NCBI GenBank assembly: GCA_023701125.1
Contig: JAMPXO010000020.1
Span: 1-56,244, forward strand
Length of the DNA: 56,244 bases
Reading direction: 5' to 3'
DNA from: Vicinamibacteria bacterium
Lineage (GTDB): Bacteria > Acidobacteriota > Vicinamibacteria > Fen-336
The notes under the pieces are model-generated. The model saw only the letters and a program-made list of their open reading frames with translations, was not told the DNA's origin and made no database searches. Below are positions 10,813 to 54,818 of this stretch, piece by piece. The translations under genes were made by a program, and so were the position numbers. Position 1 is the stretch's first letter, and the number at the start of each line of letters is the position of its first letter.

Positions 10813-12908
10813 GGCTGGTCCAGCACGTCCGCGGCGCGGGCGAGGGCGCCGGCCAGCAGCGCCGCCTGGGACGCGGCGCGTCCCGCGTCGCCCGCTTCCA
10901 CCGCCTCGCGCACGCCCGGCAGCGTCATCGCCTCGTACGACGGCCGCGGGGCGTAGACGAGGTGGCGGAAGAACGGCCGGCCCGGGATGCCGGCCGGCTC
11001 CAGCAGCGCGCGCTCGGCCGCCAGCGCGTTCCGCGTGCGCGCGCGGTCGGTCGCCGCGTCGCCGGACGCCGCCGCGCGCGGTGCGGCCGCCAGCCGCTGC
11101 GCCGCCACGCGAGCGGCGCCGAGGTCGAGCGCCATCCCGCGCGCCCGCGCCTCGGCCGCGACGTCGTCGAGGTAGGACAGCACGTCGCGGCCGTACGCGC
11201 CGTAGTCGAAGGCCGGCACGTCGGCGTTGGCGAGGCGCAGCGCGAGCAGCCCCCACAGCCGCACCATCGCGGCGTTGTAGGCGAAGCCCGGGTCGCCGAA
11301 GCGCCGGCTCCACTCGTGGCTGTCGTGGCTCGAGTGGTACACGCCGTAGGGGCCGTCGAAGATCATGTCGAGCGACGCGATCCCCAGGTGGTTGAAGAAG
11401 ACCGTGTAGTCGCTGCCGCTGCCGAGCACGCGCACCACCGGCTCGCCGTCCTCCACGCCGACGCGGGTGCCGTAGCTGCGCACGTTGTCGCCCTCGCCGC
11501 CGCGCCACACGTCGTACACGCTGCCGCGCCCCTTCGGGTCGGCCACGTCGCGGGCCGCCTCGCGCACCAGCGCTCGCAGCGCCGGCACCGCATAGGCCGA
11601 GAGGCGATCGCCGGAGGCCGCCGCGTCGACGTTCAGCACGGCCACGGCATCGCGGGCGAGCCACGCGGCGTGCTGCTCGCCCCACTCGGTCGAGCCGGTC
11701 AGGGTGAACTCCTCCGCGTCCCAGAACGCGATCAGGATCGTGCGCCGCGGCCGCATCCCGGCCCGCGCCAGCTCGCCCAACGCGCGCGCCAGCTCCAGGC
11801 CCGCGGCCGTGCCGGAAGACGGGTCCACGCCACCGAACACCCAGGCGTCGTGGTGATTGGAGAGCAGCACGACCTGGCGCGCGACCTCGGGGTCGGGGTC
11901 GGCGCCCGGGAGGCGCGCGATCACGTTGCGGATCGGCCTCACCTCGCGCGAGACATCGACCTTGACCCGCACCTTCGCCGGGCCGGGCCCGACGTGGTAG
12001 GTGAACGCGCCGCCACCCTGCCACTCGCGGGTCGGCCGCACCGGCCCGCCCAGCGCCTGCAGGATCTCGCGCGCGTCGCGGAAGGCGAGCGGCGCGCTGG
12101 GGATCCTCGGCAGGATCGTGGACTCCGCCTCCGCGATGCGCCGCGCGCCCGGCGTCGACGGCCAGCCCGGGGTCAGCGGGTCGCCCGGGACCACGAAGTC
12201 GTACACGTTGGCCCCGCGCTGCACGTGGGTCTCGTCGCCCCACGGCCCCTGCGGGTACACGTCCCCCTGGACGTGGCCGTCCTCCTCCGGGTCCGAGTAG
12301 GTGAGCAGCGCAGCGACGCCGCGGCGCTCGGCCTCCTGGCTCTTGCCGCCGCGATAGCCCTTGAACGAGCGGGCCAGCGCGACCTTGCCGCGCACGTCGA
12401 CGCCCAGCGCCGCCAGCGCGTCGTAGTCGGCGGCGCGCCCGAAGCCGACGTAGACGACCTCGGCCTCGACTTCCCCGCTCTTCGCGTAGGCGTGCCACGC
12501 GGGCTCGGCCGGCCGTTGCGTCGACGAATCGCCCGCGATCGCCTGCTCGGTCCGCGCCAGGCGGATCGCGCGCGGGGCGAGCAGCTCGACCTCGACCTGG
12601 CGCGGGGCCGACAACAGCACGTCGTACGTGGGCGTCTCGACCTCGAGCCCGGCCGCACGCAACTGCGCGGCGACGTACCCGGCGACGAGGGCACCCCCGG
12701 CCGTGCCGGCGACGTGCGGCACCCGAGTCAACTCCTCGTGCAGCGCCTCGATCCGCGCGGGCTCGGGCAGCGCGAACAGCCGTCGCTCGGCCTCGCGCTG
12801 GCGTGCGCTCGCCGCGGCCGTGAACCCCGGCAGCGCCTGGCCCGCGACCGGCCCCGCCACCAGACCGGCAACGACCCTCAGGATCCATGTCCGCGCAGTC
12901 CGCTTCAT
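10809..12908 (-). CDS. M28 zinc carboxypeptidase, glutamate carboxypeptidase II/PSMA-like
   Basis: 699-residue secreted peptidase: signal peptide, protease-associated domain insert, M28 catalytic core and C-terminal TFR-dimerisation-like domain. Zinc ligands and catalytic residues align with human GCPII: H352 (NHHDAW), bridging D362 (GGVDPSSG), general base E399 and ligand E400 (WDAEEF), D428 (LNVD) and H525 (VYHSSH). GSGSDYTVFFNH matches the substrate-pocket segment. It likely trims C-terminal residues, such as Glu or Asp, from peptides in the periplasm. ATG overlaps the TGA of the upstream SDR gene (ATGA), so the two are coupled. Whether it serves the neighbouring peptide-like locus or general nutrition is open. 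Confidence 0.9.
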   Translation of the reverse strand: MKRTARTWILRVVAGLVAGPVAGQALPGFTAAASARQREAERRLFALPEPARIEALHEELTRVPHVAGTAGGALVAGYVAAQLRAAGLEVETPTYDVLLSAPRQVEVELLAPRAIRLARTEQAIAGDSSTQRPAEPAWHAYAKSGEVEAEVVYVGFGRAADYDALAALGVDVRGKVALARSFKGYRGGKSQEAERRGVAALLTYSDPEEDGHVQGDVYPQGPWGDETHVQRGANVYDFVVPGDPLTPGWPSTPGARRIAEAESTILPRIPSAPLAFRDAREILQALGGPVRPTREWQGGGAFTYHVGPGPAKVRVKVDVSREVRPIRNVIARLPGADPDPEVARQVVLLSNHHDAWVFGGVDPSSGTAAGLELARALGELARAGMRPRRTILIAFWDAEEFTLTGSTEWGEQHAAWLARDAVAVLNVDAAASGDRLSAYAVPALRALVREAARDVADPKGRGSVYDVWRGGEGDNVRSYGTRVGVEDGEPVVRVLGSGSDYTVFFNHLGIASLDMIFDGPYGVYHSSHDSHEWSRRFGDPGFAYNAAMVRLWGLLALRLANADVPAFDYGAYGRDVLSYLDDVAAEARARGMALDLGAARVAAQRLAAAPRAAASGDAATDRARTRNALAAERALLEPAGIPGRPFFRHLVYAPRPSYEAMTLPGVREAVEAGDAGRAASQAALLAGALARAADVLDQP

Positions 12909-13848: not shown

Positions 13849-15611
13849 ATGTGCGGGATCGCGGGTGAATGGCGCTTCGACGGCCGGCCGGCCGACCGTC
13901 GCGCCGTCCGGGCGATGACCGCGCGCCTCGCCCACCGCGGGCCCGACGGCAGCGGGTTCCACTTCGACGGCGGGCTGGGCCTCGGCCACCGGCGCCTGGC
14001 GCTGATCGACGAGGCCGGCGGTGGCCAGCCGCTGACCAACGAGGATCGCAGCCTGTGGGCCGTGTGCAACGGCCACGTCGACGACGCACCGGAACAGGCG
14101 GCGTGGCTGCGTCGCCGCGGTCATCGGCTGCGCACCGGCAGCGACTGCGAGGTCCTGCTCCACCTCTACGAGGAGGCGCCCACGACCTTCGTGGAGCGCC
14201 TGGGCGGGATGTTCGCGTTCGCCCTGTGGGACGCGCGGCGGCGCCGGCTGGTGCTGGCCCGCGACCCGTTCGGCATCAAGCCGCTCTACTACACGCTCGA
14301 CTCGCGCGGCGTCCGCTTCGCCTCGGAACCCGGACCGCTGGTCGCGGTGACAGGCTTCGATCGCCGCCTCGACCCGCTCGCGTTGCGCGACTGCCTGCTC
14401 CGACTCGCGATCGACGACACGCGCTCGATCTACCGCAACGTGCGGCGCCTGCCCGCGGGCCACGTGCTCGTGCTCGAGGCCGGTACGGCGGCCGTGCCGC
14501 GCCGCTACCACCACCCGCCGCTGGCCCGGCGCGTGGCCGTCGCCGGTCGGCCCGAGCCGGCCGCCCGCGCGCTCGTCCGCCGGCTCGACGAGTGCGTGGC
14601 GCGCGCGCTACGGGCGGACCGACCGGTCGGCGCGTTCCTCAGCGGCGGCCTCGACTCCAGCGCGATCGTGGCGCTGGCCAGCCGCCGGGTCGCCAGGCTG
14701 CCCACGTTCTCCGCGCGCATCCTGGCGCCCGGTTTCGACGAGGGCCGATTCGCACGGGCCGTCGCGGAGCGCTTCGGAACCGAGCACCACGAACTCGAGA
14801 TCGACGCCGCAAGCGTGTCGGCGGCGCTGCCCGCGCTGCTCGATCGCCTCGACGAGCCGTTCGCCGACGCCTCGGTCGTGCCCACCCACCTGCTCGCCCG
14901 CTTCGCCCGCAAGCGGGTCAAGGCCGTGCTCGGCGGCGAGGGCCTGGACGAGTTGCACGGCGGCAACTTCTGGCACCGCCGCCCGGGCGCGGCCCGCGAC
15001 GGCCTCACGTCGTGGCCGGGCTCCGTCGGCGCGGGCGCCCTCGGCGGCCTGCCGACCGCCGCGCTGCGGCGCGAGATCGCGTCGGCCGCAGAGCCGGAGG
15101 CGGAACCTGTCGACGGGCGTGGCGCGCGCGAACGCCGGCTGCGCGCGGATCTGCGCCACTACCTGCCCGCCGACCTGCTGCACAAGTGCGACCGCGCCTC
15201 CATGTGGGCCGGGCTCGAGATCCGGGTGCCCGCGCTCGCGCGCCCGTTCGCCGACCACGCCACGGCGCTGCCCGTCGCCTGGCGCGTCGACGCGCGCGAG
15301 GGCAAGAAGCTGCTCCGACGCGCGTTCGCGGGGCTCCTGCCGGAGGTGGTGTCGACGCGGCCGAAGCAGGGCTTCGCGCTGCCGATCGACGTCTGGCTGT
15401 GGCAGCCGGGTCCGCTGCGCGAGCAGGTCCGCGCCGAGTTGTTCTCGGCGCGCTGCCGGCAGCGCGGGTTGTTCTCCGCGCGCTACGTGCGCCGGCTGTG
15501 GGACGAACACGAGCGTTTGCAGGCGCTGCACGGCTACCGGCTGTGGACGCTGTTCGTGATCGAGGCCTGGCACCGCCGCCACCTGGATGGCGCGCCCGCG
15601 GAGATCCCCGC

Positions 15612-15615
<4 letters not shown>
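13849..15615 (+). CDS. Asparagine-synthetase-like amidotransferase (AsnB / lasso cyclase-type)
   Basis: 588 residues. The N-terminal Ntn glutaminase has the catalytic Cys2 (MCGIAGEW), HRGPDGSG and DPFGIKPLYY. The C-terminal ATP-pyrophosphatase domain has SGGLDSS (265-271), GGEGLDE and RPKQGFALP. It activates a carboxylate as acyl-AMP; members make asparagine or close amide/macrolactam rings. Two deviations stand out. The glutamine-site motif NGEIYN is NGHVDD (74-79), and the LExRVPFLD motif reads LEIRVPALA, so free-Asn synthesis from glutamine is questionable. ATG is preceded by AAAGGGGGG. It overlaps the ABC exporter gene by 4 nt. Context fits a macrolactam-forming cyclase (lasso C protein), but polysaccharide-locus homologues exist too. 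Confidence 0.82.
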
Positions 15616-17251
<1,636 letters not shown>

Positions 17252-17255
<4 letters not shown>

Positions 17256-18928
17256 CGCCGCGACTGGCGGCCGCGCTGGGGCGCGGCTCGGCGCTGTTGC
17301 TGGCAGTGTCGGGGGCGGCGTCGCTCGCGCTGGCGGGCCATCACGCCAGTGAGGGCGCGGTGCTGCTCGGCTGGTCGTGGCGCTACCTGCTGGGCGTGCT
17401 GGCACCGGTGACCGTTCTCGTCGGCGTCCAACTTGCCGCCGTGCTCCACTGGCCCGCGCTCGTGACCACGGCCGCGCGGCGGCCGCGCGCGTTCGCCGCC
17501 CTGGCCCTGCCGGCCGTGGCGGGCGCTGCCTGTTGGGCGGCGGCCGTGCCGGGGCAGCCCCAGGGGCTGCTGGCCGCGGCCTGGGCGGCGAGCCTCGCAG
17601 GGCTCGCCAGCGCCGCGATGCTGCGGCCGTGGGAGGGGCTGCTGGCGCACTCGAGCCTGGCCCTGGCCGCGGCGATGGTGCTGCTGCCCGAGGTGCAGCT
17701 ACTGACCGAGCCGCGCAGCCAGAGCCGCCACGCCGAGCCACGGTGGGGAGACGATCGGACCTTCGCGTTCTCCTTCCCACGCCAGGAGCCCTTCATCGGC
17801 GTCGGCGGCCGGCTGCGGCCGTCCGTCCGCGCCTGGATCGCCCGCTCGGCGATCGACACGCAGCGGCGGGTCTGGTTCGCGACGAACGCTCTGGGCCTGC
17901 GCAACGAGGACGAGGCGGGCGGGCCTGAAACAGACGGCGCGCTGACCGTGCTGAACCTCGGCGACTCGTTCGCCGTCGGCTTCGGCATCGACCAGCATCG
18001 CTTTCTCGGGCCGCTGACCCAGCGCGAACACGCCGCGGTCACGGGTCGCCGAGTGAGGGTGTGGAACGCGGAGGTGTCGGACCCGTGTTACGGCGCGCTC
18101 CATCTCCAGCGCCACGGCCTCGGCTTGCGGCCCCAGGTCGTCGTCTACGGACTCTCCGGCAACGACCTGCTTCAGGGCTGGCTGGGCTGCGGGCCGCGCG
18201 GCGTGCTGGCCCTCGGCGCGGACGGCCGGGTTCGCGCCGTGGACGCGCCGGCTCCTCGCCTGCCGTTCGACGCGTGGGCCGAGTGGTCCTATCCGCGCGA
18301 CGGCGACAGCGCCGTCGCCGCGGAGGCGGCCCCACCCCGGCACCCGCATCCCCTCCTGGGCACGTTGCTGTCGCTGCGAACGATCCGCTGGCTGCGCCCA
18401 CCGCCGGGCCCGGAGCGCCCGCGCGGAGAGCTGCGCGGCGAGCTGACGGTGAGCGGCGGGGCGACGGTCCAGCGCGGCCCGCGCAAGCTGCTGTTCGACG
18501 GCTTCCCCAACCTCGGCTTCAGCTATCGGACCGAGCTGCCGCCCGCGACCGACTCCTACGCGGTGACGCTGCCGCTGCTCGAGGCGATGGCCCGCGGCGC
18601 CCGCGAACGCGGCGCCCGTTTCGTGCTCCTGTACCTGCCGCAGCGGCACCTGGTGCAGCCCCAGGACTGGGACGTGCTGCGCAGGCGCTGGAGCCTGGCG
18701 GAGGAGGACTTCGACCTCGACCGCGAGCGCCTGCTCCTGCGCGCCTTCTGTGCGCAGCGCGGCATCGAGTGGGTGGACCCGACCCCCGCGTTCCGCGCGG
18801 CCGCTCGCACGACCAACCTCTACCTGCCGTGGGACGGCCACATGAACGAGGCCGGCCACGAGCTGGCGGCGCGGGCCCTGGTCGAGGCGCTGGGCCGTCC
18901 GCCGGGTCAGACCGCCAGCGCGCGATAG
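17252..18928 (+). CDS. Membrane-anchored SGNH/GDSL hydrolase or acyltransferase-like protein
   Basis: 558 residues. The N-terminal quarter holds five to six hydrophobic segments (about 5-150). The remainder has SGNH blocks: NLGDSFA (G237-S239), GLSGND (303-305) and DGHMN (D528/H530), the last resembling the DxHxN block of alginate-acetylation enzymes. It likely transfers or removes an acyl group on an extracytoplasmic glycan or peptide. Third gene of the AsnB-like operon. It meets the minus-strand GT4 gene tail-to-tail with a 22-bp overlap. The substrate is unknown. Confidence 0.72.
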
Positions 18929-20001
18929 AGCGCCTCGTAGGCGTCGGCGCAACGCGCCATCGAGAAGCGCTCGCGGGCGCGCAGCGCCGCGGCCCTGCCG
19001 AGCCGCTCGCGGCGCTCCGGCGCGGCCATCAGCGCGAGCATCTCGCGGGCCAGTCCCCGCCAGTCGCCCGCCGCGAACAGCCGGCCGCTGCGGCCGTGGA
19101 CCACCAGCTCGGGGTTGCCGCCGGAGCGGGCGGCGATCACCGGACGGCCGCCGGCCATCGCCTCCAGGACCGCGTTGCTGCAGCTCTCGCCCAGCGACGG
19201 CAGGACGGCCACGTCGCTCCACGCCAGCACCTCCCTCGCGCCGGCCTGGCCGAAGTCGAGTCGCCCCGCGAGCCCGAGCCGCGCGGCCAGCGCGCGAACG
19301 GCCTGCTCCTGCCGCTCGAGCGGCGCCTGCCCGAAGCTCGAGCCGTAGACGCGGAAACGCGCTCCGGGCGCCGACCGCGCGACACGGGCGGCGGCGCGCA
19401 GGAAGTCGGCATGGCGCTTGACCGGGTAGTAGTGGGCGGCGAGGCTGAAGCGGGCGCGGTCCGCTGCACCCCGCGACGGGGCCGGCGGCAAGGCGTCGAT
19501 CGCCGGCACGCCGTTGGGGATGCAGCGAAGCCGCCTGACGGCAGCCGCCCGCAACCGACTCGCGACGAAGCGCGAGTTGCACACGACGGCCGCGGAGAGC
19601 GAGGCGAGCAACTGCAGCAGGCCCTCGCGGCGCGCGGGCTTCAACTCGGCGAGCGCGACGTCCGGGTGTCCGCCCACCCGCCACACGTGGGGCACGTCGA
19701 CGCTGCCCGCCGCCAGGCCCGCGAGCGGCGAGAAGAGATTCGCCTGCATCACGTCGACGCGGTGGCGGACCAGCCAGGCGGCGAGCCGCGCGTGGTCGGT
19801 GCCGAAGTCGCGGCCAGCGAGGGCCAGCGCCTCGAAGCCATCGGCCGTGAACTCGCGCAACACGCGCCCGGATGGCGCCGAGGCGACGAGGCAGACGTGG
19901 CCCCGGGCGCGCAACTCGCGCAGCAGGCGCAGGACGAAGCGCTCCTGTCCGCCGAACAACCGCGGGTGGAGCTGGAACGCGAGCCGCAGCGGGCGGCTCA
20001 C
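18907..20001 (-). CDS. Glycosyltransferase family 4
   Basis: 364 residues with the GT-B plan. The N-terminal acceptor half begins LRLAFQLHPRLFGGQERFVLRLL. The C-terminal donor half has PNGVPA, LPSLGESCSNAVLEAMAGGRPVIA and the EX7E-type region SGGNPELV. It transfers a sugar from a nucleotide-sugar donor. GTG overlaps the HprK-like gene stop (GTGA), so kinase and glycosyltransferase are co-translated. Modification of a phosphorylated peptide or of a surface glycan would both fit. Confidence 0.88.
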   Translation of the reverse strand: MSRPLRLAFQLHPRLFGGQERFVLRLLRELRARGHVCLVASAPSGRVLREFTADGFEALALAGRDFGTDHARLAAWLVRHRVDVMQANLFSPLAGLAAGSVDVPHVWRVGGHPDVALAELKPARREGLLQLLASLSAAVVCNSRFVASRLRAAAVRRLRCIPNGVPAIDALPPAPSRGAADRARFSLAAHYYPVKRHADFLRAAARVARSAPGARFRVYGSSFGQAPLERQEQAVRALAARLGLAGRLDFGQAGAREVLAWSDVAVLPSLGESCSNAVLEAMAGGRPVIAARSGGNPELVVHGRSGRLFAAGDWRGLAREMLALMAAPERRERLGRAAALRARERFSMARCADAYEALYRALAV

Positions 20002-20951
20002 CGCAGCAGGGCCCGCACCCGCTCGGCGAAGCCCTCCAGGTCGGGGCCCAGGCTGACCGCGTACGCGGGCGCGGCGGCCACCAGCTCCGACAGGCGGCGG
20101 AAACGCTGGCCTTGCGCCCACTCGTCGTGGACGACGCCGCGGGTGCTGCCGCCCAGCGGGTACGACGCCAGCAGCCGGGCCAGCGCATCCGTCCGCGACA
20201 GCGGGCGGAAGCGGACGTTCCGCCCGGCCCCGACCCATGGGAACAGCAGCAGCCGGACGGGCGCCGACTCGACCCGCGCGCCGGGCCGCACGGCGTGGAC
20301 CTCGACCTGGCGCTTGCGGTGCCGGCCGCGGCCCCGCAGCGGGAAGCGGCCGAGCGCGGGCAGGCCGGGGATCAGCCGCGCCGACGGCTCGCGCAGCGCG
20401 ACGGTCCCGCCGCGACTGCGCACCCGCGGCCGCCCGCGGACGAGATCGAGGTACGCGTCGTTGTCCGTGAGGAAGTCGAAGCCCCCCGCGACCAGGGCCA
20501 GCGCGCTGGTGCTCTTGCCGCTGCCCGTCTCGCCGCACAGCAGGACGCCACGACCGCGGCAGGCCACGGCGGCGGCATGCAGCGTCGACAGGCCGCGCCG
20601 CTCGATCAGGTCCAGGAACGTCGGCACCACCATCGCGTGGACGATCCTGAACGCATCGTCGAGCGCGCTCTGCACGTGGACCTGCCAACGGCGTCCGGCC
20701 CGGTGACCGGTGATCAGTCGGTGGCGGCTGGCGTTGAGGAAGAACGTCTCGTTGGCGAACGCCTGCACCTCGCGCAACGAACCGGGAGCGCCGGCCTCGA
20801 CGAGCACGTCGATCTCCACGTCGGCCCGTTGCGCCGGTCCACAGGCGAGCCGGCTCCACGCGGCCTCGGCGGACCCGACGAGCGACATCACGTCGCGGCG
20901 CCGGGAGCGCACGACGAAGCGACGCCCGAATACGTCGTACCACTTCTCCAC
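19998..20951 (-). CDS. HprK-related kinase
   Basis: 317 residues with a P-loop GETGSGKST (140-148) preceded by LHAAAVACRGRGVLL, and TDNDAY at the Walker-B-like position, as in HPr kinase C-terminal domains. No phosphotransferase-system gene is nearby. Such HprK-like proteins recur with PqqD-like proteins and, in some lasso-peptide clusters, phosphorylate the C-terminal residue of the peptide. It lies 12 bp after the S51-type gene and overlaps the GT4 gene by 4 nt. The closest parallel is the kinase plus nucleotidyltransferase pair of phosphorylated and glycosylated lasso peptides; that link is inferred. Confidence 0.82.
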   Translation of the reverse strand: MEKWYDVFGRRFVVRSRRRDVMSLVGSAEAAWSRLACGPAQRADVEIDVLVEAGAPGSLREVQAFANETFFLNASRHRLITGHRAGRRWQVHVQSALDDAFRIVHAMVVPTFLDLIERRGLSTLHAAAVACRGRGVLLCGETGSGKSTSALALVAGGFDFLTDNDAYLDLVRGRPRVRSRGGTVALREPSARLIPGLPALGRFPLRGRGRHRKRQVEVHAVRPGARVESAPVRLLLFPWVGAGRNVRFRPLSRTDALARLLASYPLGGSTRGVVHDEWAQGQRFRRLSELVAAAPAYAVSLGPDLEGFAERVRALLR

Positions 20952-20963: not shown

Positions 20964-21686
20964 CTACCGGCCGCGCAGCGAGTCGCCGACCAGCGCGCGG
21001 CGCGCGCGGATCAACCACGCCCACGCCCGACTCAGGTCGCGCGCAGGCAGCGCCCGCGGTGCGCCCCCGGCCCACAGGCTGTGGCCGCGCGCCCCGGGCC
21101 GCAGGGCGACGAACGCCGCGCGATCGGGCGTCCAGTCGAGCAGCGCGTCGTCGTCCAGGGCCACCACCTCGAGCCCCGGCGCAGCGTCGACCGGCAGCCG
21201 CGGGTGCGCCCACGGCCGCTGGTCGAAGTGCGGGCAGAGCGCGAGCGGCACGAAGCCGAGCCCCTCGAGCCACTCGGGCTCGCCGAAGCGCGAGGCGCTC
21301 CACAGCCGGGTGGCGAAGCAGGTCCCGCCGCCGCTCGTCCCGGAGAGCGCGAGCCCGGCCTGCCACGCCGCGCGCAGCCGCGCCGCGTGCGGGCGCAGCA
21401 GGTGCAGGAGGTGGGCGGTGTGGCCGGCGGGCACGTGCAGGAGGTCGATCGCGTCGAGTCCCGCCATGGCCCCGGGGCCGGCGAGGTCGATCGTCCGGAA
21501 CTCGAGCCGCGAGGCCGCGGCGCGAGCGCGCCAGGCCGCGACCAGCTCCGGGGCCTCGTCTCCGCTCGTCGCCACCCCGAGCCGTCCGCCCGCGCAGGCC
21601 TGGCGCAGCAGCGCCCGCGCGCGCGCAGCGGCCCGCCCCGCCGCCAGCGGGTCGAAGCCCCCGGACACGAACAAGCGTGGACCCAT
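20964..21686 (-). CDS. Peptidase S51 (dipeptidase E/cyanophycinase)-like protein
   Basis: 240 residues, class-I amidotransferase-like fold. The nucleophile elbow is LSGTSGGGT with S118, close to Ser120 of E. coli PepE (SAGA there). CPHFDQRPW matches the family PHxD segment carrying the catalytic-triad His. LLHVPAGHTAHLL stands where S51 proteins have VGGGNT, so the substrate pocket is unusual. S51 enzymes hydrolyse Asp-X or related bonds in the cytosol. First gene of the minus-strand operon with the kinase and GT4, divergent from the PqqD-like gene. It could be the processing protease of the locus, but no sequence feature proves activity. Confidence 0.62.
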   Translation of the reverse strand: MGPRLFVSGGFDPLAAGRAAARARALLRQACAGGRLGVATSGDEAPELVAAWRARAAASRLEFRTIDLAGPGAMAGLDAIDLLHVPAGHTAHLLHLLRPHAARLRAAWQAGLALSGTSGGGTCFATRLWSASRFGEPEWLEGLGFVPLALCPHFDQRPWAHPRLPVDAAPGLEVVALDDDALLDWTPDRAAFVALRPGARGHSLWAGGAPRALPARDLSRAWAWLIRARRALVGDSLRGR

Positions 21687-21727: not shown

Positions 21728-22147
21728 GTGACCGCCTCGCGTAAATCTCCTCGTCCTTCGTCCGCCCCGTGTCGCAAGCCCGACGTGCCCGTCAAGGAGT
21801 TCGGCCCCCAGGAGGGGATGCTGCTCGACCTCGAGAGCGGCGAGTACTACGGCCTCGAGGGCGCGGCGCTCGCCCTCTGGAAGCGGCTCGACGGCCACAC
21901 GACCCGCGACGAGTTGTGCGCGCACGTCACCGCCACCTTCGACGGCGCCGGCCCCGGGGTCGACGCTCATGTCGACGCGTTCCTCCGCCAGTTGCGCAGC
22001 GCGGGCCTGCTCTCGGGCCCCGGGGCCAGCCTCGACGCGGAGCGCGGGGCGGGGCGCAGCCGGGCCAGGGCCGGCGCCCGGCCTCCGTATCGCGCGCCGC
22101 GGCTGCACAAGCGCGGCAACCTGAAGTATCTCGGCCAGCTGGATTGA
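21728..22147 (+). CDS. PqqD-like RRE protein with C-terminal lasso-leader-like motif
   Basis: 139 residues. Residues about 20-95 form a PqqD-like winged-helix domain (EGMLLDLESGEYYGLEGAA, LWKRLDGHTTRDELC, VDAFLRQLRSAGLL), the fold that binds RiPP leader peptides. An Arg/Ala/Gly linker follows. The protein then ends with YRAPRLHKRGNLKYLGQLD (121-139), which fits the YxxPxLxxxG leader signature read by lasso B1/PqqD proteins, yet has no core peptide after it. GTG start; the TGA overlaps the TTG of the next gene. The tail could be a docking mimic, an intramolecular regulator or a degenerate or very short substrate. PqqD assignment is good; the leader reading is inference. Confidence 0.78.
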   Translation: MTASRKSPRPSSAPCRKPDVPVKEFGPQEGMLLDLESGEYYGLEGAALALWKRLDGHTTRDELCAHVTATFDGAGPGVDAHVDAFLRQLRSAGLLSGPGASLDAERGAGRSRARAGARPPYRAPRLHKRGNLKYLGQLD

Positions 22148-22851
22148 CCCCGCGCATCTCGGTCCTGATGCCGGCGCGCGACGTCGCGCCCCTCGTCGCG
22201 GACCAGGTGCGCTGCGTGCTGGCCCAGGACCACCCGGACTTCGAGTTCGTCGCCTGCGACGACGGCTCGGCGGACGGCACGTGGCAGGAGCTGCAGCGCT
22301 TCCGCGGCGACCGACGGGTGCGGTTGTTGCGCAACCGGGTCGCGATCGGCGTCGGAGCCACCCGCAACCGGCTGCTGCGCGCGTCCCGCGGGGCGTACGT
22401 GATGCCGTGCGACGCCGACGACTGGCTGTTGCCGGGCGCGCTGTCGCGGCTCTGCCGTTTCCTCGACCGCCATCCAGGCGTCGGCTACTGCTACGGCAGC
22501 TACCTGATGGTCGAGACCGGCCGCGATCGGCTCCTGCAGCGGCCACCGTGGGTGCGCGGCCAGCCCCACGACCCCGCGGCCGACCTGCTTCAGTTCACGG
22601 CCAACCACGGCGGCGCGCTGATGCGCCGCGAGCTGGCGCTCGCGGTCGGCGGTTACGACGAGGACACGCCGCTCGACAGCATCAGCCTGACCTTGAAGCT
22701 GGCGGAGGTCACGCGGCTGCGGCTGCTGCCGGGCGCACTCACCTACGTCTACCGGCGCCGGGAGCGGGGCGGGCGGCGCCCGCACTGGGCCCAGGAGTTC
22801 GTCAAGCTGGTGCGCCGCGCGCAGCAGCGACGGCGGGCGGCGCGGACGTGA
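22144..22851 (+). CDS. Glycosyltransferase family 2 (first of a tandem pair)
   Basis: 235-residue GT-A enzyme: SVLMPARD, DDGSADGTW and the metal-binding DADDWLLPGAL (DxD). It starts with TTG overlapping the PqqD-like stop (TTGA), so translation is coupled. It lacks C-terminal membrane helices, so it should act in the cytosol. It is a paralogue of the next gene, with shared blocks such as GATRNRLL, CDADD and GGY. The sugar donor and acceptor cannot be read; the PqqD context makes a peptide or carrier-bound acceptor possible. Confidence 0.87.
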   Translation: MTPRISVLMPARDVAPLVADQVRCVLAQDHPDFEFVACDDGSADGTWQELQRFRGDRRVRLLRNRVAIGVGATRNRLLRASRGAYVMPCDADDWLLPGALSRLCRFLDRHPGVGYCYGSYLMVETGRDRLLQRPPWVRGQPHDPAADLLQFTANHGGALMRRELALAVGGYDEDTPLDSISLTLKLAEVTRLRLLPGALTYVYRRRERGGRRPHWAQEFVKLVRRAQQRRRAART

Positions 22852-23564
22852 GCGCGGCGCGGCCCGAGGTCAGCGTGCTGATCGCCGCCCGCAACGCCGC
22901 CCACCTGGTCGACCAGCAGATCGCCTCCGTGCTCTCCCAGCAGGGCGTACGGCTGGAGCTGCTGGCCTGCGACGATGCCTCGACGGACGGCACCTTCGAG
23001 CGGCTGCGGCGCTGGCAACACGACCCGCGAGTGCGCGTGCTGCGCAACAGACGCCGGCTGTTTCCCGGCGCGACTCGCAACCGCCTGCTGGCGCTCGCCC
23101 GCGGGAACTACTGCGCGCCGTGCGACGCGGACGACCTGCTGCTGCCGGGCAGCCTGGCGACGCTGGTCGCCGCGTTGCGGCGCAGGCCGCGCGCGGGCGT
23201 GGCCTACGGCCAGTCGCTGCAGGTGTTCGCCGAGCCACGACGACCGCCGCGCCTGATCGGCGTGGCGCCGGAGCGGCATTGGGACCTGTTCGAGACCGGC
23301 ACCAACCACGCGGGCAGCGTGATCCGCACTCGCCTGCTGCGGGCCGTGGGCGGCTACCGGCCCGGCCTGCGGCTGGCCGAAGACTGGGACCTGATGCTGC
23401 GGTTGCGGGAGGCCTGCGACTTCCTGTACGTGCCCCGGATCACGACCGTGTGGCGACTCCAGCCGCGCTCGCGCAGCCGCATCGCCCGCGGCCGCGCCGG
23501 GGTCGCGCTCGAGATCGTGCTGGCCGCCGTGAGCCGGCGGCGGGCGACTACAGGCGCCCCCTGA
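22848..23564 (+). CDS. Glycosyltransferase family 2 (second of a tandem pair)
   Basis: 238 residues: SVLIAARN, DDASTDGTF and CDADDLLLPGSL, then AEDWDLMLRLRE, where ED is the family catalytic-base motif. The first paralogue has DTPLDSISLTLKL at this place and lacks the ED pair, so this copy looks the more typical enzyme. GTG overlaps the upstream stop (GTGA). Its 3' end overlaps the convergent nucleotidyltransferase gene by 17 bp. Probably the two act in sequence or as a heterodimer; inferred. Confidence 0.87.
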   Translation: MSAARPEVSVLIAARNAAHLVDQQIASVLSQQGVRLELLACDDASTDGTFERLRRWQHDPRVRVLRNRRRLFPGATRNRLLALARGNYCAPCDADDLLLPGSLATLVAALRRRPRAGVAYGQSLQVFAEPRRPPRLIGVAPERHWDLFETGTNHAGSVIRTRLLRAVGGYRPGLRLAEDWDLMLRLREACDFLYVPRITTVWRLQPRSRSRIARGRAGVALEIVLAAVSRRRATTGAP

Positions 23565-24621
23565 GTCGTCCGAGCGACACTCCCAGCGCCCGCCACGCCC
23601 CGGCCATCGACCGAAGCGGTCGCTTCGCGGCGCGGCCGCTTCGCGCCGTCTCCCGCGTGGTCAGCTCGTGGCGCACGGCCCACGCCTGCAACAGCCCGCG
23701 CCGCTCGGGAGCGAGTTGGCGGGCCGCGAACGCGACCCGCCTCGCCCACGGCACGGCAGCCGCGCCGAGCCGGTCGAACGCGGCCACCGGGATCTCCACC
23801 GCCAGCTCCGCGGCCAGATAGCGGAGCCCGGCCTGCAGCGGAGCCTCGAGGCCCAATGCCTGCGCCCGCGCGACCAGCCGATCCCAATCGAACGCGGCGG
23901 CCGCGGCTCGCAGCAGCAGCACCGCGTCGGCGATCCAGTGCACGGGCGGCGACGGGTTCCAGCGCAGGCCATGGACGCAGGCGACGAGGAACTGGTCGAC
24001 GACGTCGAGGACCAACGCGGGCTCGCCGGCGATCGTGGCCGGCAGCGCGCCCGCCCACAGCGCCGCATCGTGGCCCGTGCCCACGAACTCCTCGAGCGCG
24101 TGGCGGTGGAGGTCCACGTCGAGCCGCGGCGACGTGAAGGCCTGGGCGTGGCCGGCACTGGCCGCGAGCGGCGCCCAGCCCGCCGCCTCCAGGGCGCGCG
24201 CCGCCTCGGCGAAACCGGACGCCGGCACCAGCAGGTCGAGGTCCGAGGACGGGCGCAGGGCGGGGTCGCCGTACGCGTCGAGCAGCGCCCAGCCCTTCAG
24301 CACGACGACCGGCATGGCCACGGCCCGCAGCGCACGCAGGGCTCGTGCGGCCTGGGGGCGGGCCCGCTCCGCGCGCTGCCAGGAGAGCAGGTACGCGGCC
24401 TCGGCGTGGCGAGCCAGCGCCGAGGGTTCCCGCTCCCGGGTCGCGCGAAAGACCAGCGGCAGCAGGCGCTCGACCCCGGGCGGCAACGCATCGGCCACGA
24501 TGGTGGCCTCGAGCCGCAGCAGCGCCTCGCGCCGGGCCGGTCCTTCCCGCAGGCCCGCCTTCAGCAGCAGCGACTGGGCCGGCGTCGGCCAGCAGTCCGC
24601 CACACCCTCCGACCTCGGCAT
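23548..24621 (-). CDS. Nucleotidyltransferase family protein (NTP_transf_5-like)
   Basis: 357 residues. VVVLKGWALLDAYGDPALR followed by SSDLDLLV (S125, D127, D129) is the nucleotidyltransferase metal-binding motif of the uncharacterised NTP_transf_5 family. Downstream, LDVDLHRH supplies the third carboxylate. Homologues occur with PqqD- and HprK-like proteins; in a Bacillus lasso cluster the equivalent protein is reported to attach hexose to a phosphorylated peptide (from memory). It transcribes towards the GT2 pair. With the HprK-like kinase it supports a phosphorylate-then-decorate pathway. Start ATG 24621; the ribosome-binding site is weak. Confidence 0.78.
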   Translation of the reverse strand: MPRSEGVADCWPTPAQSLLLKAGLREGPARREALLRLEATIVADALPPGVERLLPLVFRATREREPSALARHAEAAYLLSWQRAERARPQAARALRALRAVAMPVVVLKGWALLDAYGDPALRPSSDLDLLVPASGFAEAARALEAAGWAPLAASAGHAQAFTSPRLDVDLHRHALEEFVGTGHDAALWAGALPATIAGEPALVLDVVDQFLVACVHGLRWNPSPPVHWIADAVLLLRAAAAAFDWDRLVARAQALGLEAPLQAGLRYLAAELAVEIPVAAFDRLGAAAVPWARRVAFAARQLAPERRGLLQAWAVRHELTTRETARSGRAAKRPLRSMAGAWRALGVSLGRLRGRL

Positions 24622-44138: not shown

Positions 44139-45212
44139 GTGATTTCGCGAGTGCAACGGGGCGTCGGGCTGCTGCTGTTCGCGGCGGTCAGCAGCGGGCC
44201 CGCGATCACTGTCGCCGGGACCGCGGAAGCCGGGATCGGGGCGCGCTACGAGTTCGTCCTGAACCTCTATGCCGAGGGCCGCCACGCCGAGGCCGTCGCC
44301 GCCCTGGCCGAGTTCCCGTGGAAAGAGCTGGACGACGGCTGGCAACTGCTCGAGTTGCGCATGCGAGCGCTCCGAAGCTGCCCGACGTGCCCGGACACCC
44401 TGCTCGACCGCCTGCCGCTGAAGGCGGCGGCGATGCTGCACTTCGACGTCGACGTCGCCCTGCGCCCGGCCAACGTCGTGATCGAGCAGCCCCCCACGTG
44501 CTCCGGACGCCACGCCCGCCGCGCCAGCCAGTTCGCGGAGCTGCTCGCGCTGCGGGTGGACGGCCGCGACTTCGCGCGCCGGTTCTACCTCGTGATGGCC
44601 CAGCGCGCGCAGTGGGACGCCTGCCTCGACGAGGCGATCGAGTGGTGGGGCCACGCCGGCCTGGAGCGCTTCCCGAACGACCCCGAGCTGCTGCTCACCG
44701 TGGGCGCGGCCCACGAGAAGTACGCGCGGCTCACCGATCGCAGCCCGACCCCGCACCTGCGCAACGCGCTGGGTCCCCTCGCCGCGGCGGTCCAGGCCGA
44801 TCCCGCCCTGCTTCAGGCCCGCCTCCACCTCGGCCGCGTGCAGTGGCGACTGGGCGAACTCGACGAGGCCCGGCGCACGCTGCAGAACGGGATCGCACAG
44901 GGCGGCGAAGCGGACGAGCGCTACCTCGCTCACCTGTTCCTCGGCCAGGTCCACGCCCAGGCGGGGCGAGCCGATGCCGCGGTCGAAGCGCTGCAGACCG
45001 CACTGGGCATCGACCCGGCAGGCCAGGCCGCCGCGGCCGCCCTGGCCCAGGTCCTGCTCCTGCGCGGGGACACGACGGCGGCACGCGCGGTGGTCGACCG
45101 CGCCCTGACCCGCCCCCGCGACCACTTCGACCCGCACTGGAACTACCTGTCGAGCAACGCGACCGACATCGACGATCGACTCGACGACCTGCGCGCGGAG
45201 TGCGGGCGTTGA
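44139..45212 (+). CDS. Secreted TPR protein with conserved cysteines (paralogue 1)
   Basis: 357 residues: N-terminal hydrophobic signal, a first helical repeat (AEGRHAEAVAALAEF), a Cys-bearing segment (C81 and C84 in CPTCPD, C121 in TCSGRHARRA, C162 in WDAC) and then TPRs to the C-terminus (RLHLGRVQWRLGELDEARRTL, ADAAVEALQTALGIDP). AAAMLHFDVD is shared with the two later paralogues. TPRs bind proteins, so it is probably an envelope scaffold; the cysteines may form disulfides or hold a metal. It ends in a TTGA overlap with a VWFA gene, and the TPR-VWFA order recurs at 47.4-50.4 kb. Not recognised as a named family. Confidence 0.78.
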   Translation: MISRVQRGVGLLLFAAVSSGPAITVAGTAEAGIGARYEFVLNLYAEGRHAEAVAALAEFPWKELDDGWQLLELRMRALRSCPTCPDTLLDRLPLKAAAMLHFDVDVALRPANVVIEQPPTCSGRHARRASQFAELLALRVDGRDFARRFYLVMAQRAQWDACLDEAIEWWGHAGLERFPNDPELLLTVGAAHEKYARLTDRSPTPHLRNALGPLAAAVQADPALLQARLHLGRVQWRLGELDEARRTLQNGIAQGGEADERYLAHLFLGQVHAQAGRADAAVEALQTALGIDPAGQAAAAALAQVLLLRGDTTAARAVVDRALTRPRDHFDPHWNYLSSNATDIDDRLDDLRAECGR

Positions 45213-46102
45213 GCCGGCCCCTCGCCCGCGTGACTGCCGCGGCCCTGGCCTGCGCCAGCCTCGCCGCCCTCGCCCAGGTGCCGGAGTTCCGGGTCGGCGT
45301 CGAGGCCGCCTACGTGGACGTCTTCGTCTCCCGCGGCGACGCGCCCGTCGTCGGCCTCGGCTCCGACGACTTCGAGTTGCGCGACGAGGGCGTCCCGCAG
45401 CCCGTCGCGGTCGTGGCCTCCGACGTGCTGCCGATCCAGGCCCTCTTCGTGTTCGACTCCAGCAGCAGCCTCACGAACGAGAAGCGCGCGGCCCTGCGCA
45501 GGGCGGGCGAGATCCTGCTCGCCGCGCTGCGCCCCGCGGACGAGGCCGGCCTGCTCGCCTTCTCCGCCGAGATCTTCTGGCTCGCGAAGCCGACCCGCGA
45601 CCGCGACGCCGTGCGGCGGGCGCTGGCCCGGATGGAGCCGATCGGCGCGACCTCGGTCTACGACGCGCTGCTGGCGGCGCTCGCGGTCGCCGACCCGCGC
45701 GGGCGCACGTTGATCATCCTGTTCACCGACGGCCGCGACAACACGAGCGCACTCGACGCGAGCCACCTGAAGGCCGTGGCCGAGCGCACCAGCGCCCTCG
45801 TCCATCTCGTCACGGTGCGCGATGCGCTGCCGCAGCCGGGGCGCCCGATCCGCGCACCCCTCGACCGCACAGCGCTCGACGACATCGCGGAAGCCACCGG
45901 CGGCCGGGTCTGGGTCGCCAACTCCGTGGCCACGCTCGGCGGCGCCTTCGAGCGCATCGCGGCCACGCTGGCCGCCCGCTACGTGCTGCGCTACGAGCCG
46001 CGCGGCGAGCCGAAGCCCGGCTGGCACCGGCTGGAGGTGAAGCTGCGCAAGGGGCGCGCCCAGGTCCACGCCCGCCGCGGTTACTGGGCCCCGGAGCACT
46101 GA
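45209..46102 (+). CDS. VWFA-related (acidobacterial-type) secreted protein
   Basis: 297 residues from TTG 45209. Signal peptide, then a short beta region VDVFVSRGDAPVVGLGSDDFELRDEG, as at the start of VWFA-related acidobacterial proteins. The A domain follows with a full MIDAS DSSSS (83-87), T in GATSVYD and FTDGRDN. It ends RRGYWAPEH. The domain should bind a protein ligand through a divalent metal in the periplasm or at the surface. Translationally coupled to the TPR gene. Confidence 0.85.
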   Translation: MSRPLARVTAAALACASLAALAQVPEFRVGVEAAYVDVFVSRGDAPVVGLGSDDFELRDEGVPQPVAVVASDVLPIQALFVFDSSSSLTNEKRAALRRAGEILLAALRPADEAGLLAFSAEIFWLAKPTRDRDAVRRALARMEPIGATSVYDALLAALAVADPRGRTLIILFTDGRDNTSALDASHLKAVAERTSALVHLVTVRDALPQPGRPIRAPLDRTALDDIAEATGGRVWVANSVATLGGAFERIAATLAARYVLRYEPRGEPKPGWHRLEVKLRKGRAQVHARRGYWAPEH

Positions 46103-46128
46103 GGATCCGGGATCGCAACAGGCTTGCG

Positions 46129-47322
46129 CTACCGGCAGGGCGAAGGGCCGCCCGGCGGCAACGCCTCGCCCAGGAGCGAGTCGAGCCAGGCGGCGTCCGA
46201 CAGCCCACGCGTCTTCCAGCCCGGGGCCAGCCTGTCCAGCATCGAGGCCTGCGCCATTCCGGAGTAGTAGAACCGCACGTCGCCGTCGGCGCGTCGGATC
46301 TGGGCCAGCTCCCGCGACCACTGCGCGAAGAAGGTCGAGTACCCCTGGAACGCGGGGTCGGCGGCGAGCGCCGCCAACGGACGGTAAGTTGGCGTCGTCG
46401 CGGCGGCGCGCCAGGCCTGCAGCTCGACGTACTTCGCCAGGCCCTCCAGCCACTCGCGCTGGCGCTCGTAGTCGACGAGGTCGGGGGACAGGCCCGTCGA
46501 CCGACGACGCTCGTGGCGCACCGCGAGAAAACGACGCGCCAGTGGCTCGGCCTCCTGGCACGACTCGGCCGCGGCCGCTTCGGCGAGCCACCGCAGTTCG
46601 TCCTTCCACAGGCCGCGCAGGGTGGCGTCGGGTGCCTCGTACACGCGTTCGAGCCTCGTGGCCCGCTCGGCGGCCTCCAGGCGAGCCGGTGCGGTGGCGG
46701 CCTGGTGCGCGTGGAACGCCTCGTGGAGCAACATCGAGATGTAGCCGTCCGTGCCGCCCAGGAACAGGTTCGTCGCGAGGCGGTAGGGGAAGATCGGCCG
46801 GAGCACCGACGGCAGGTCGCGGCGGAACTGCTCGGTCATCACGATCTGCATCCGCTCCAGGGTGGGAAGGCTGGACGCGTAGCGGCCGCCCACGCGAACG
46901 GTGAAGGCCTCGGGCGTGACGCCAGGTCCGGGCAGGCGCTGCCGGTGATAGGGGGCGCCCGCGAAGGTGTCGCCCGGCACGATCTCCCACGGGCCGCCGA
47001 CGATCTGCTCTCCGGGGATCTTCACCCAGCCGGGCGCCGGGTCGGCCTCGCCGAGGATGAACGCGAAAGCTTCGTTGTAGACGACGACGGGGTTGCGCGC
47101 CGAGCCCCAGCCGGGCCAGATGCTGTCGCCGAGTGCCGCCCTCAGGTGCAACGCCTCGGCGAGCCGTGCCTGCTCGGCCGCGGGAAGTCGTTCGGTGACG
47201 GCCGATCGGGTCGGCAGGCCCCGGTTGTTCAGTGCTGAGGCGCCGGCCAGGGCCAGCACGGCGAGGATCAGGACCGCGACCAGGATCCCGAGGGCCCTCA
47301 TCACCCGCCGTTGCCTCGCCAG
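46129..47322 (-). CDS. HExxH zinc metallopeptidase-like membrane/secreted protein, possible CTG start
   Basis: 397 residues if started at CTG 47322 (GGAGGAG six bases upstream), or 390 from ATG 47301, which has no nearby ribosome-binding site. An N-terminal signal or anchor (about 12-30) precedes the main domain; the zinc motif is LLHEAFHAHQ (HEAFH) and a candidate third ligand is E in EGLAKYVELQAW. The layout fits a gluzincin-like peptidase of unknown family. It is inserted, on the opposite strand, between two TPR/VWFA modules, so it may process their products; inferred. Confidence 0.65.
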   Translation of the reverse strand: MARQRRVMRALGILVAVLILAVLALAGASALNNRGLPTRSAVTERLPAAEQARLAEALHLRAALGDSIWPGWGSARNPVVVYNEAFAFILGEADPAPGWVKIPGEQIVGGPWEIVPGDTFAGAPYHRQRLPGPGVTPEAFTVRVGGRYASSLPTLERMQIVMTEQFRRDLPSVLRPIFPYRLATNLFLGGTDGYISMLLHEAFHAHQAATAPARLEAAERATRLERVYEAPDATLRGLWKDELRWLAEAAAAESCQEAEPLARRFLAVRHERRRSTGLSPDLVDYERQREWLEGLAKYVELQAWRAAATTPTYRPLAALAADPAFQGYSTFFAQWSRELAQIRRADGDVRFYYSGMAQASMLDRLAPGWKTRGLSDAAWLDSLLGEALPPGGPSPCR

Positions 47323-47421
47323 GGCTCGCTCCTCCGCTGGGAGTGTAGGTGAAGCAAGAGCAGTGCGCACCGGAATCGCGGCGTTCGCCCGAGCGTAGGA
47401 TCCGCCACAGGAGCGAGTGGA

Positions 47422-48486
47422 ATGCCACCAGCGACGGGGCGGGCGTTCGCGCTGCTGCTCTTGTGCGCCGTCTGCGCTCCGGCGGTGCCGGCGCAGCAGG
47501 CGCAGAGAGACGAGCGGCTCGTCCGCTACGAGAGCGTCCTCCTCGCGTACGCGGGAGGGGACCGGGACGAGGCGCTGCAGCGCCTCGGGGAGATGTCCTG
47601 GCAGACGCTCGACGCCGCGTGGGCGTTGCTCCTGTCCCAGGTGAAGAACGTCGCCACCTGCCCGAACTGCGCCGACCCGGTCTCGCGCCTGCCGCTGCCG
47701 GCCGCGGCAATGCTGCACCTCGACCGCGACCGGCTCGACAACCCGCGCCAGTTCGACGTCGAGCAGCGCCCGCGATGCCCGGGACGCCAGGCGCAACGCG
47801 CTCTCCAGGTCGCCGACCTGCTCGCCACGCGTCCGGAGACGCGCGAGTTCGCGCGGCGCCTCTTCCTCGGCGCGGCGCAGCGCGCACAGTGGGACGCCTG
47901 CATGGAAGAGGCCGTGGCGACGGGCCGCGCCGGCCTCGCCCTCTTCCCCGACGACGCGGACCTGCTGCTGGCCGTCGGCGCGTCGTACGAGAAGTGGGCG
48001 CGGCTCGTGGACGTGCGCACCGCCTCGCTGCTCGGGGACGCGGCCCGCCACCTCGAGCGAGCGCTCGCGGCGGACCCGGGGAGAGCGACGACGCGCGTCC
48101 ACCTCGGCCGCGTGCTGTGGCGGCAGGGGCGTTTCGAGGACGCCCGTGCGACGTTCGAGGCCGCCGTCACCCCGGGAGCCGACGCGGGTGCGCTCTATCT
48201 CGCCCACACGTTTCTCGGTCACCTCCACCACCGCGCGGGCCGATCGGAGGCTGCGGTCGAGTGCTTCCACCGCGCGTTGGCGATCGCCCCGCTGGGTCAG
48301 GCCGCGGCGCTCGGCCTCGCCCACGCCCTGCGCCTCCGGGGCGACACGACCGGCGCGGGACAGTCTGCGGACCAGGTGCTCGCGGCTCGCGACAAGCCGC
48401 TCGACCCGCTCGTGAACTACCTCGCCGACAACGCCGCCGGCGCCGAGGATCTGCTCGACGAGTTGCGCGAGGGGACGCGACGATGA
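47422..48486 (+). CDS. Secreted TPR protein with conserved cysteines (paralogue 2)
   Basis: 354 residues; signal peptide ending VPAQQ. Homologous to the 44.1-kb protein along its whole length: CPNCADP for CPTCPDT, AAAMLHLDRDRLDNP, RCPGRQAQRA for TCSGRHARRA, WDAC, then TPRs (RVHLGRVLWRQGRFEDARATFEAAV). All four cysteines are kept. ATG 47422 has AGGAG 10 nt upstream and TAGGAT at 47396-47401 as a possible -10. It overlaps paralogue 3 by 4 nt (ATGA). Confidence 0.78.
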   Translation: MPPATGRAFALLLLCAVCAPAVPAQQAQRDERLVRYESVLLAYAGGDRDEALQRLGEMSWQTLDAAWALLLSQVKNVATCPNCADPVSRLPLPAAAMLHLDRDRLDNPRQFDVEQRPRCPGRQAQRALQVADLLATRPETREFARRLFLGAAQRAQWDACMEEAVATGRAGLALFPDDADLLLAVGASYEKWARLVDVRTASLLGDAARHLERALAADPGRATTRVHLGRVLWRQGRFEDARATFEAAVTPGADAGALYLAHTFLGHLHHRAGRSEAAVECFHRALAIAPLGQAAALGLAHALRLRGDTTGAGQSADQVLAARDKPLDPLVNYLADNAAGAEDLLDELREGTRR

Positions 48487-49520
48487 TGCGGCTGGTGTGG
48501 GTGGCCGTGCTGGCCCTCGCCTCCGCTCGCGCAGCGCAGGTCGACGACGGTCCCGCCCGTTACCTGGGCGCGCTGCGGGCGTACGCGTCCGGCGAGCGCG
48601 AGGCCGCCGTCGCCCGCGTCGGCCCCCTGGCCTGGGAGGAGATGGACGCGGCTTTCGGCCGCTTCCGGAGCGAGGTGAACCGCGCCGGCCGCTGCCGGAC
48701 CTGCCCCGACACGCTGGCGAACGAGCCGATCCGGGCGGCGGCGATGCTGCACCTCGACCGCGATCTGGTCGAGAACCCGCCGCACCAGGACGTCGAACAG
48801 CCCCCGCCCTGCGGCGGCCGCCACGCGCGCCGCGCCCTCGAGTACGCGGAACTGCTGGCGCTGCGCGAGCGCACCCGCGAGTTCGCCCGCCGCTTCTACG
48901 TCGCGATGACCTGGCGCGCCGAGTGGGACGCCTGCCTGTTCCAGGCGGTGGGCTGGGCGCGGACGGGCCTGGTCGCCTTCCCGGACGACCCCGACCTGCT
49001 GCTTGCCCTCGGCGTGACGCACGAGAAGGCCGCCCGGCTCGGCGGCAAGGACCCGGGGCGCCTGCTGCGCGAGGCACGCCGTCATCTCGCGCGGGTGGTC
49101 GCGGTCGACCCCGGGCGCCTCTCGGCGCGCGTGCACCTCGGTCGCGTGTTGTGGCGCCTGGGCCAGCTCGACGAGGCCCGGCGCACGCTGGAGGCCGCGG
49201 TCGAGGTGGGTGGCGGAGGAGAGGGGTTGTATCTCGCCCACGTCTTCCTCGGTCATGTACACGGCCGCGCCGGCCGTCCCGCGGCGGCAGCCGACGCCTT
49301 CCGGCGCGCGCTCGCGATCGCTGCGGACGGCCCGGTCGCGACGATCGGGCTCGCCCACGCGTTGCGGCAGCAGGGCGACCTCGACGGCGCGGCTCGGATC
49401 GTCGATCGTGCGCTGGGCAGCGAGACGGCCCGGTTCGATCCCTATCGCGACTACAACGCCGACAACGCCCGGGACGTCGCGCGCCTGTTCGACGCGCTGC
49501 GCGAGGAGGCCCGACAGTGA
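48483..49520 (+). CDS. Secreted TPR protein with conserved cysteines (paralogue 3)
   Basis: 345 residues with a short signal peptide. CRTCPDT, AAAMLHLDRDLVENP, PCGGRHARRALEYAELLALR and WDAC keep the four family cysteines, followed by RVHLGRVLWRLGQLDEARRTLEAAV-type TPRs. Resembles paralogue 1 (ARRTL, FARRFY). Its GTGA overlap with the next VWFA gene repeats the arrangement of module 1, so the second module arose by duplication of the TPR gene within a TPR-VWFA unit, or the first by loss. Confidence 0.78.
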   Translation: MMRLVWVAVLALASARAAQVDDGPARYLGALRAYASGEREAAVARVGPLAWEEMDAAFGRFRSEVNRAGRCRTCPDTLANEPIRAAAMLHLDRDLVENPPHQDVEQPPPCGGRHARRALEYAELLALRERTREFARRFYVAMTWRAEWDACLFQAVGWARTGLVAFPDDPDLLLALGVTHEKAARLGGKDPGRLLREARRHLARVVAVDPGRLSARVHLGRVLWRLGQLDEARRTLEAAVEVGGGGEGLYLAHVFLGHVHGRAGRPAAAADAFRRALAIAADGPVATIGLAHALRQQGDLDGAARIVDRALGSETARFDPYRDYNADNARDVARLFDALREEARQ

Positions 49521-54792: not shown

Positions 54793-54806
54793 GCGCTCAC
54801 GCGATC

Positions 54807-54812
54807 TAGAAT
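54807..54812 (+). promoter_or_regulatory. -10-like TAGAAT, 6 nt before ATG
   Basis: TAGAAT-N6-ATG (54819) in the 26-bp gap between the two VWFA-like genes, so the second copy has its own probable leaderless promoter. Confidence 0.45.
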
Positions 54813-54818
54813 CGGACC

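Follow-up and report, generated by a model that had tools for sequence, protein, structure and literature searches.

A PqqD-like protein with a conserved leader-like C-terminal tail, encoded beside HprK-like kinase and glycosyltransferase genes

Introduction

Linear polyphosphorylated peptide (LPP) clusters encode an RRE (RiPP recognition element), an HprK-like kinase, an NTP transferase, an MsbA-like pump and glycosyltransferases, and YxxP is their RRE-binding motif (PMC13381572). In these glycosyltransferase-rich loci, the YxxP leader of LppA is the ligand of the RRE LppB, LppK is the kinase that polyphosphorylates Ser3, and LppN is the NTP transferase (PMC13381572). The known HprK-like peptide kinases modify serine (PMC9266682, PMC13381572), and those that tailor lasso peptides require a His, a P-loop Lys and an Asp-Asp pair (PMC9266682). 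When lasso B1 proteins bind leader peptides, the RRE sheet is extended by a strand from the leader (PMC7470986). In a 2025 survey, 21% of PF05402 proteins were longer than 110 residues yet carried no other Pfam domain, and these proteins were called an opportunity (PMC12710340).

Discrete RREs, YxxP leaders, HprK-like kinases and PF14907 proteins are already known. Here we describe a PqqD-type reader that carries a leader-like motif on its own chain. It is encoded in a stretch of 56,244 nucleotides, which we refer to as the window.

Results

The PqqD/RRE protein of 139 residues is encoded on the forward strand (21728..22147), with a GTG start at 21728 and a TGA stop at 22145-22147. Its domain (residues 30-95; 21815..22012, forward strand) matches PF05402 (PqqD) with an E-value of 3.5e-16 and 59.7 bits, above the cut-off of 23.4, and is modelled by AF2 as three strands and three helices, so that both the family match and the fold place it among the RREs. 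TbiB1 was also recovered as a sequence match by phmmer (7.6e-5). The domain is followed by a variable linker rich in Ala, Arg and Gly (residues 97-120; 22016..22087, forward strand) and by the leader-like tail YRAPRLHKRGNLKYLGQLD (residues 121-139; 22088..22144, forward strand). The first-pass annotation had claimed that this tail ends the protein, that Y121, P124, L126 and G130 have the spacing of YxxPxLxxxG, and that a leader-type motif and its reader are thus joined on one chain by an Arg/Gly/Ala linker; re-reading the codons confirmed this description. The looser pattern [YF]xxPx[LIV]xxxG occurs only twice in a six-frame translation of the 56 kb window, in the PqqD tail and antisense to the same spot. 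The tail contains neither Ser nor Thr and terminates in ...LGQLD-COOH. Searches with the tail alone against Pfam, NCBIfam and PDB sequences yielded nothing usable.

In both other genomes of the genus (G001 and G002), the PqqD protein ends in YRAPRLEKRGNLKYLGQLD, a single change (H to E) from the window tail; the linker and the N-terminus differ among the three genomes. Between the window and the other two genomes, the tail shows 6-7 synonymous differences at about 16 sites and 2 non-synonymous differences at 44 sites, versus 24-26 of 57 and 32-33 of 168, respectively, in the PqqD domain. This corresponds to a pS of about 0.4 and a pN of 0.05 in the tail and to a pS of about 0.43 and a pN of 0.19 in the domain, and hence to a pN/pS of about 0.1 versus about 0.45. 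By these counts, purifying selection acts more strongly on the tail than on the domain. We conclude from its reading frame, its conservation in the genus and the per-site differences that the tail is genuine coding sequence under constraint. When the genus genomes were searched for a further tail of this kind, only weak matches (E 0.08 or worse) were obtained. Many other PqqD proteins lack the tail and end soon after the domain; the further PqqDs of the same genome are among these.

The tail could be the relic of a fused precursor that lost its core in the window genus and was kept for the folding stability of the RRE. The window genus does have the shortest tails, and a built-in leader could stabilise an RRE, because LppB is insoluble without its leader (PMC13381572). 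We nevertheless regard this origin as improbable, since the tail, including the residues past the docking motif, evolves more slowly than the domain.

A profile search for PqqD relatives in 396 genomes of the phylum Acidobacteriota recovered further PqqD proteins whose match extends into the tail, the distant ones carrying related tail forms. These are (a) [YF]xxPxLxKYxDMQDLLLLDPIHEVDExGWP, (b) YExPQLKLSNxLxxVxLSGSx..., (c) YxxPxLxAYHDMADLLALDPPxPG, (d) the short tails of the window genus, and (e) YVSPHMEKHGKLDQLMLSGE. A scan for form (a) across 84,980 species genomes gave 264 pattern matches, 230 of which encode a relative, and 80 of these relatives were kept for cassette analysis. They come from Chloroflexota, Cyanobacteriota, Nitrospirota, Acidobacteriota, Pseudomonadota, deltaproteobacterial groups, Bacteroidota, Gemmatimonadota, Lentisphaerota and others. 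Viral contigs were also searched and nothing was found.

Within the form (a) proteins, conservation peaks in the tail, at a mean of 3.1 bits per column (a value inflated by the scan patterns, which lie inside the tail); the domain averages 1.9 and the linker 0.5. Outside the scan patterns lie the leader-motif positions [YF], P and L, conserved at 0.90, 0.97 and 0.88. Neither within the genus nor within the tailed family, then, is the tail missing from homologues or unconserved beside a conserved domain. The earlier remark that no core peptide follows the motif applies to the window genus; in most relatives, a near-invariant DPIHEVDExGWP segment, absent from the window genus, comes after the docking motif. 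In a tree of PqqD domains, the tailed proteins cluster (5 changes versus 21 in shuffles), and a p-AU of 0.36 over 93 columns decides neither for nor against one origin of the tailed PqqDs.

Other arrangements were seen at a few loci. In L014, L015 and L019 (genomes G012, G016 and G014; same family and order), the PqqD domain precedes a signal-like hydrophobic segment and an end rich in Cys, as in SCLNAFATCVLPTDCCAGLDCQYLGYGYGFEC, and in L015 the PqqD domain and the signal-like/Cys-rich part form two separate frames. Form (b) tails are found at L065 and L071 next to genes for very large proteins of about 1500 residues and to HprK-like genes, whose P-loops (GAQRAGKT, GSPRAGKT) depart from the usual GxGGSGKS. 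The tailed cassette L119 contains a second PqqD-like frame that is apparently untailed (L119:4171-4446).

With regard to the gene neighbourhood, the PqqD gene is divergent from a gene for a peptidase S51-like protein (20964..21686, reverse strand; PF03575, 1.2e-10), beyond which lies an HprK-like kinase (19998..20951, reverse strand). This kinase carries the pattern His...GETGSGKST...DND and matches PF07475 (1.5e-5) and TIGR04352 (1e-10), both under their cut-offs. The pattern of His, P-loop Lys and Asp-Asp is present in most of the HprK-like kinases that were checked, that of the window included. Downstream of the PqqD gene, a family 2 glycosyltransferase (22144..22851, forward strand; PF00535, 2.6e-23) has a start overlapping the PqqD stop, and the same enzyme adjoins PqqD in G001 and G002. 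It is followed by a second family 2 glycosyltransferase (22848..23564, forward strand) and by a PF14907 (NTP_transf_5) nucleotidyltransferase (23548..24621, reverse strand; 2.7e-41). The other side of the region comprises an AsnB-type amidotransferase with an intact Cys2 (13849..15615, forward strand; PF00733, 4.1e-85; motifs MCGIAGEW and SGGLDSS), an ABC transporter with a fused membrane domain and no reported peptidase domain (15612..17255, forward strand; PF00005, 2.4e-32, and PF00664, 4.1e-6, just under the cut-off), a membrane protein with an SGNH/ALGX-like domain (17252..18928, forward strand; PF13472, 1.5e-9, and PF16822, 1.6e-8) and a glycosyltransferase of groups 1/4 (18907..20001, reverse strand; PF13692, 6.4e-24). 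G002 preserves the gene order throughout, from the AsnB gene at one end to the nucleotidyltransferase gene at the other. Elsewhere in the window (44151-50419 and 53866-55685), several pairs of similar neighbouring genes, such as 45200-46102/49589-50419 and 53866-54792/54819-55685, are probably local duplications.

Downstream of the PqqD gene, the form (a) loci mostly encode an HprK-like kinase (71 of the 80 cassettes), family 2 glycosyltransferases (74), a PF14907 protein (58) and an ABC transporter (35); many contigs are short. An HprK-like kinase was found within 1.5 kb of 14 of 16 tailed PqqD genes versus 5 of 31 untailed ones. For AsnB, the corresponding figures are 0 of 16 versus 10 to 11 of 31, and among the loci examined the AsnB, S51 and SGNH genes are confined to the window genus. 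The suggestion that the tail is a docking tag for the amidotransferase is therefore not supported, no AsnB homologue being present in any of the 80 tailed cassettes. A tag of another kind, whose end recruits the kinase or the nucleotidyltransferase to a scaffold acting on some other molecule, such as a glycan, would suit the glycosyltransferase-rich surroundings and the post-motif segment, which is conserved like a binding site. We consider it rather unlikely, as tagging alone does not account for the leader motif in the first half of the tail.

The nearest solved structures to the window protein are B1-leader complexes (TbiB1 and TfuB1), in line with the lasso B1/PqqD leader signature noted earlier. 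A lasso system, by comparison, is not borne out: the contig has no B2 and, by motif search, no separate precursor, and AsnB keeps its glutaminase Cys. A search of the whole genome for the B2 leader peptidase (PF13471) gave a match above the cut-off on contig C85 only and none on the window contig, and a motif search of the window found the leader motif solely in the PqqD tail. Nor is AsnB supported as a lasso cyclase: it scores 217 on the lasso cyclase model, versus a cut-off of 525; the amidotransferase and AsnB models (TIGR03108 and TIGR01536) score higher, an amidotransferase being the best assignment, and Cys2 is retained. Contig C85 of the same genome holds a lasso-like cluster (L030) with two untailed PqqDs, AsnB, PF14907, B2 (PF13471), a 2OG oxygenase and a Stf0 sulphotransferase. 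A 52-aa ORF with AWVKPEI (10954-11112) is a possible precursor there, and L030 also contains a weak StsA match.

Across 96 loci, the core tail pattern was found at 88 places, every one (88/88) within a PqqD frame. The leader pattern occurs at 106 places, of which 84 lie in PqqD frames and 22 are stray, random-looking YxxP-type matches. By this motif search, no cassette contains a separate motif-bearing precursor, and the tail seems to stand in for a precursor, although one without the motif could escape such a search. This bears on the proposed self-docking switch, of which the docking half is retained as a prediction and the switching half has no motif-bearing precursor to respond to. A tail that plugs the groove until a separate precursor of higher affinity displaces it would resemble a ligand and dock, as is predicted here; yet the cassettes offer no such precursor, the genus genomes hold no second close copy of the tail, and DPIHEVDExGWP would be left unexplained. 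We therefore regard a plug as very improbable. In L027, a protein of 143 aa encoded between the tailed PqqD and HprK genes (L027:12731-13162) resembles signal peptidase I on visual inspection and is a possible leader peptidase, as in LPP clusters. Such a protein was rejected as a general cassette member, since it was seen in L027 only and Pfam was unsupportive. A phmmer search with this one remote candidate, which has low sensitivity, gave no match in the window or in the other loci.

The AF2 model of the window protein (16 sequences) shows an RRE fold, a disordered linker (pLDDT <50 at residues 103-107) and a strand in the tail at residues 126-131, with a pLDDT of 94 for the block 121-130. 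For a relative from Oscillatoria sp. PCC 10802 (65 sequences), the corresponding strand is at residues 121-124, the block 111-120 has a pLDDT of 93, and the DPIHEVDExGWP end is at 57-63, which suggests a docked motif and a free end in this protein. For both models, the closest solved folds are leader-peptide complexes of TbiB1 and TfuB1; the TbiB1-leader complex 5V1V aligns with the window model over 88 residues (Z 11.6, rmsd 1.9). The LPP structures 9X8Z and 9X90 are absent among the fold matches listed, and 9X90 appears as a weak sequence match only. The tail is thus predicted to dock onto its own domain as an extra strand, and the tail strand, the model confidence and the homology point to the leader groove as the putative site. 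As the prediction is a monomer model, a swapped dimer may exist instead of docking in cis.

Discussion

We propose that the window protein is probably an RRE with its own leader fused at the C-terminus, which docks in cis and presents its end to the enzymes of the cassette. The flexible linker would let the tail fold back and place Y121, P124 and L126 in the groove that lasso and LPP systems use for the leaders of separate precursors. With its tail lying in the leader groove, the reader would thus be permanently occupied in cis. The docked reader would then present the residues after the motif, DPIHEVDExGWP in most relatives and ...LGQLD-COOH in the window genus, to the HprK-like kinase, the family 2 glycosyltransferases and the PF14907 nucleotidyltransferase. 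We infer that a pathway of the LPP/paeninodin type, making a phosphopeptide or a glycopeptide, may use the exposed end as its payload or as a site for binding partners.

A special case of this cis-docked arrangement is that the protein sacrifices itself as a precursor, the end of its tail being the substrate that becomes a phospho- or glycoprotein, or a peptide after cleavage. The LPP phosphorylated Ser3 lies at +18 from the motif Tyr, and this position is occupied by Asp in 87 of 90 tailed proteins and coincides with the chain end in the window protein; tails ending in LSG have a Ser at +17. These positions, the intact kinase motif and the conservation of the post-motif segment despite its low model confidence make the special case possible, although we hold it only tentatively. 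The usual kinase target is missing from the window tail because it has no Ser or Thr, Asp would have to be the target of an HprK-like enzyme, and a leader peptidase candidate is present in one locus only. We know of no phosphorylation of Asp by HprK-like enzymes. A widely distributed class of self-reading precursors, with RRE and leader docked in cis on one chain and an exposed C-terminal segment modified by the kinase, nucleotidyltransferase and glycosyltransferases of the cassette at an Asp that replaces Ser, is rather unlikely.

The tailed PqqD family, present in at least 230 bacterial species, is apparently undescribed. We found no description of the leader-to-reader fusion, its conservation or its spread in the open-access literature (subscription papers and preprints were outside the scope of the search), and a text search of that literature for DPIHEVDE-type strings returned no paper. 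Such pathways would escape searches for small precursor genes, because RiPP mining presumes a separate precursor and the precursor-like part is here hidden in a protein annotated as PqqD. The tailed PqqD is a defined candidate substrate for HprK-like kinases and PF14907 nucleotidyltransferases, for which, to our knowledge, no targets are known beyond lasso and LPP systems. Engineers have made leader-fused enzymes, and the leader-RRE fusion represents a natural counterpart of these. The family could also account for part of the long PF05402 proteins in the 2025 survey (PMC12710340).

Comparison with known systems

The PqqD-like protein occurs together with an HprK-related kinase, as in the HPr-rel-A and SynChlorMet systems (TIGR04352/04353 and TIGR04248/04249). 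For both systems, however, the model scores fall short of the curated cut-offs, and assignment to the HPr-rel-A system was rejected on the scores of TIGR04352 (41.2 versus 200) and TIGR04353 (23.3 versus 35). Borosins likewise join the modified peptide to one of the proteins of the pathway, in their case the methyltransferase and here a leader-binding RRE. The lasso B1 proteins (TbiB1, TfuB1, PadeB1) share the PqqD fold and the spacing of the leader motif and are the closest solved relatives. However, the precursor they bind is a separate one, and they act alongside B2 and a cyclase; none of these partners is established in the window. In the paeninodin and pseudomycoidin pathways (PadeK, PsmK, PsmN), an HprK-like kinase and a nucleotidyltransferase act on a peptide delivered by an RRE, as is proposed here, but their targets are C-terminal Ser residues of lasso precursors (PMC9266682), and the window tail has no Ser.

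The LPP system (LppA/LppB/LppK/LppN/LppD/LppS) has in common with the window the RRE, the HprK-like kinase, the NTP transferase, the ABC pump, the glycosyltransferase-rich surroundings and the YxxP motif. In the window, the kinase is recognised by its motif and weak family matches, the NTP transferase by PF14907, its likeness to LppN being one of function name, and the MsbA-like transporter by PF00005 and PF00664 in one protein. The LPP precursor motif YxxPxVLxHQxIxFETxxS was not found in a motif search of the window, and the fused tail lacks the full motif. In LPP clusters, the RRE is discrete, the precursors are separate proteins and the leader peptidase is signal-peptidase-like; such clusters are reportedly restricted to Bacillota (PMC13381572). 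In the window family, by contrast, the leader is fused to the RRE. We have filed the tailed PqqDs as a variant of the RRE/phosphopeptide kind, outside the lasso and LPP families.
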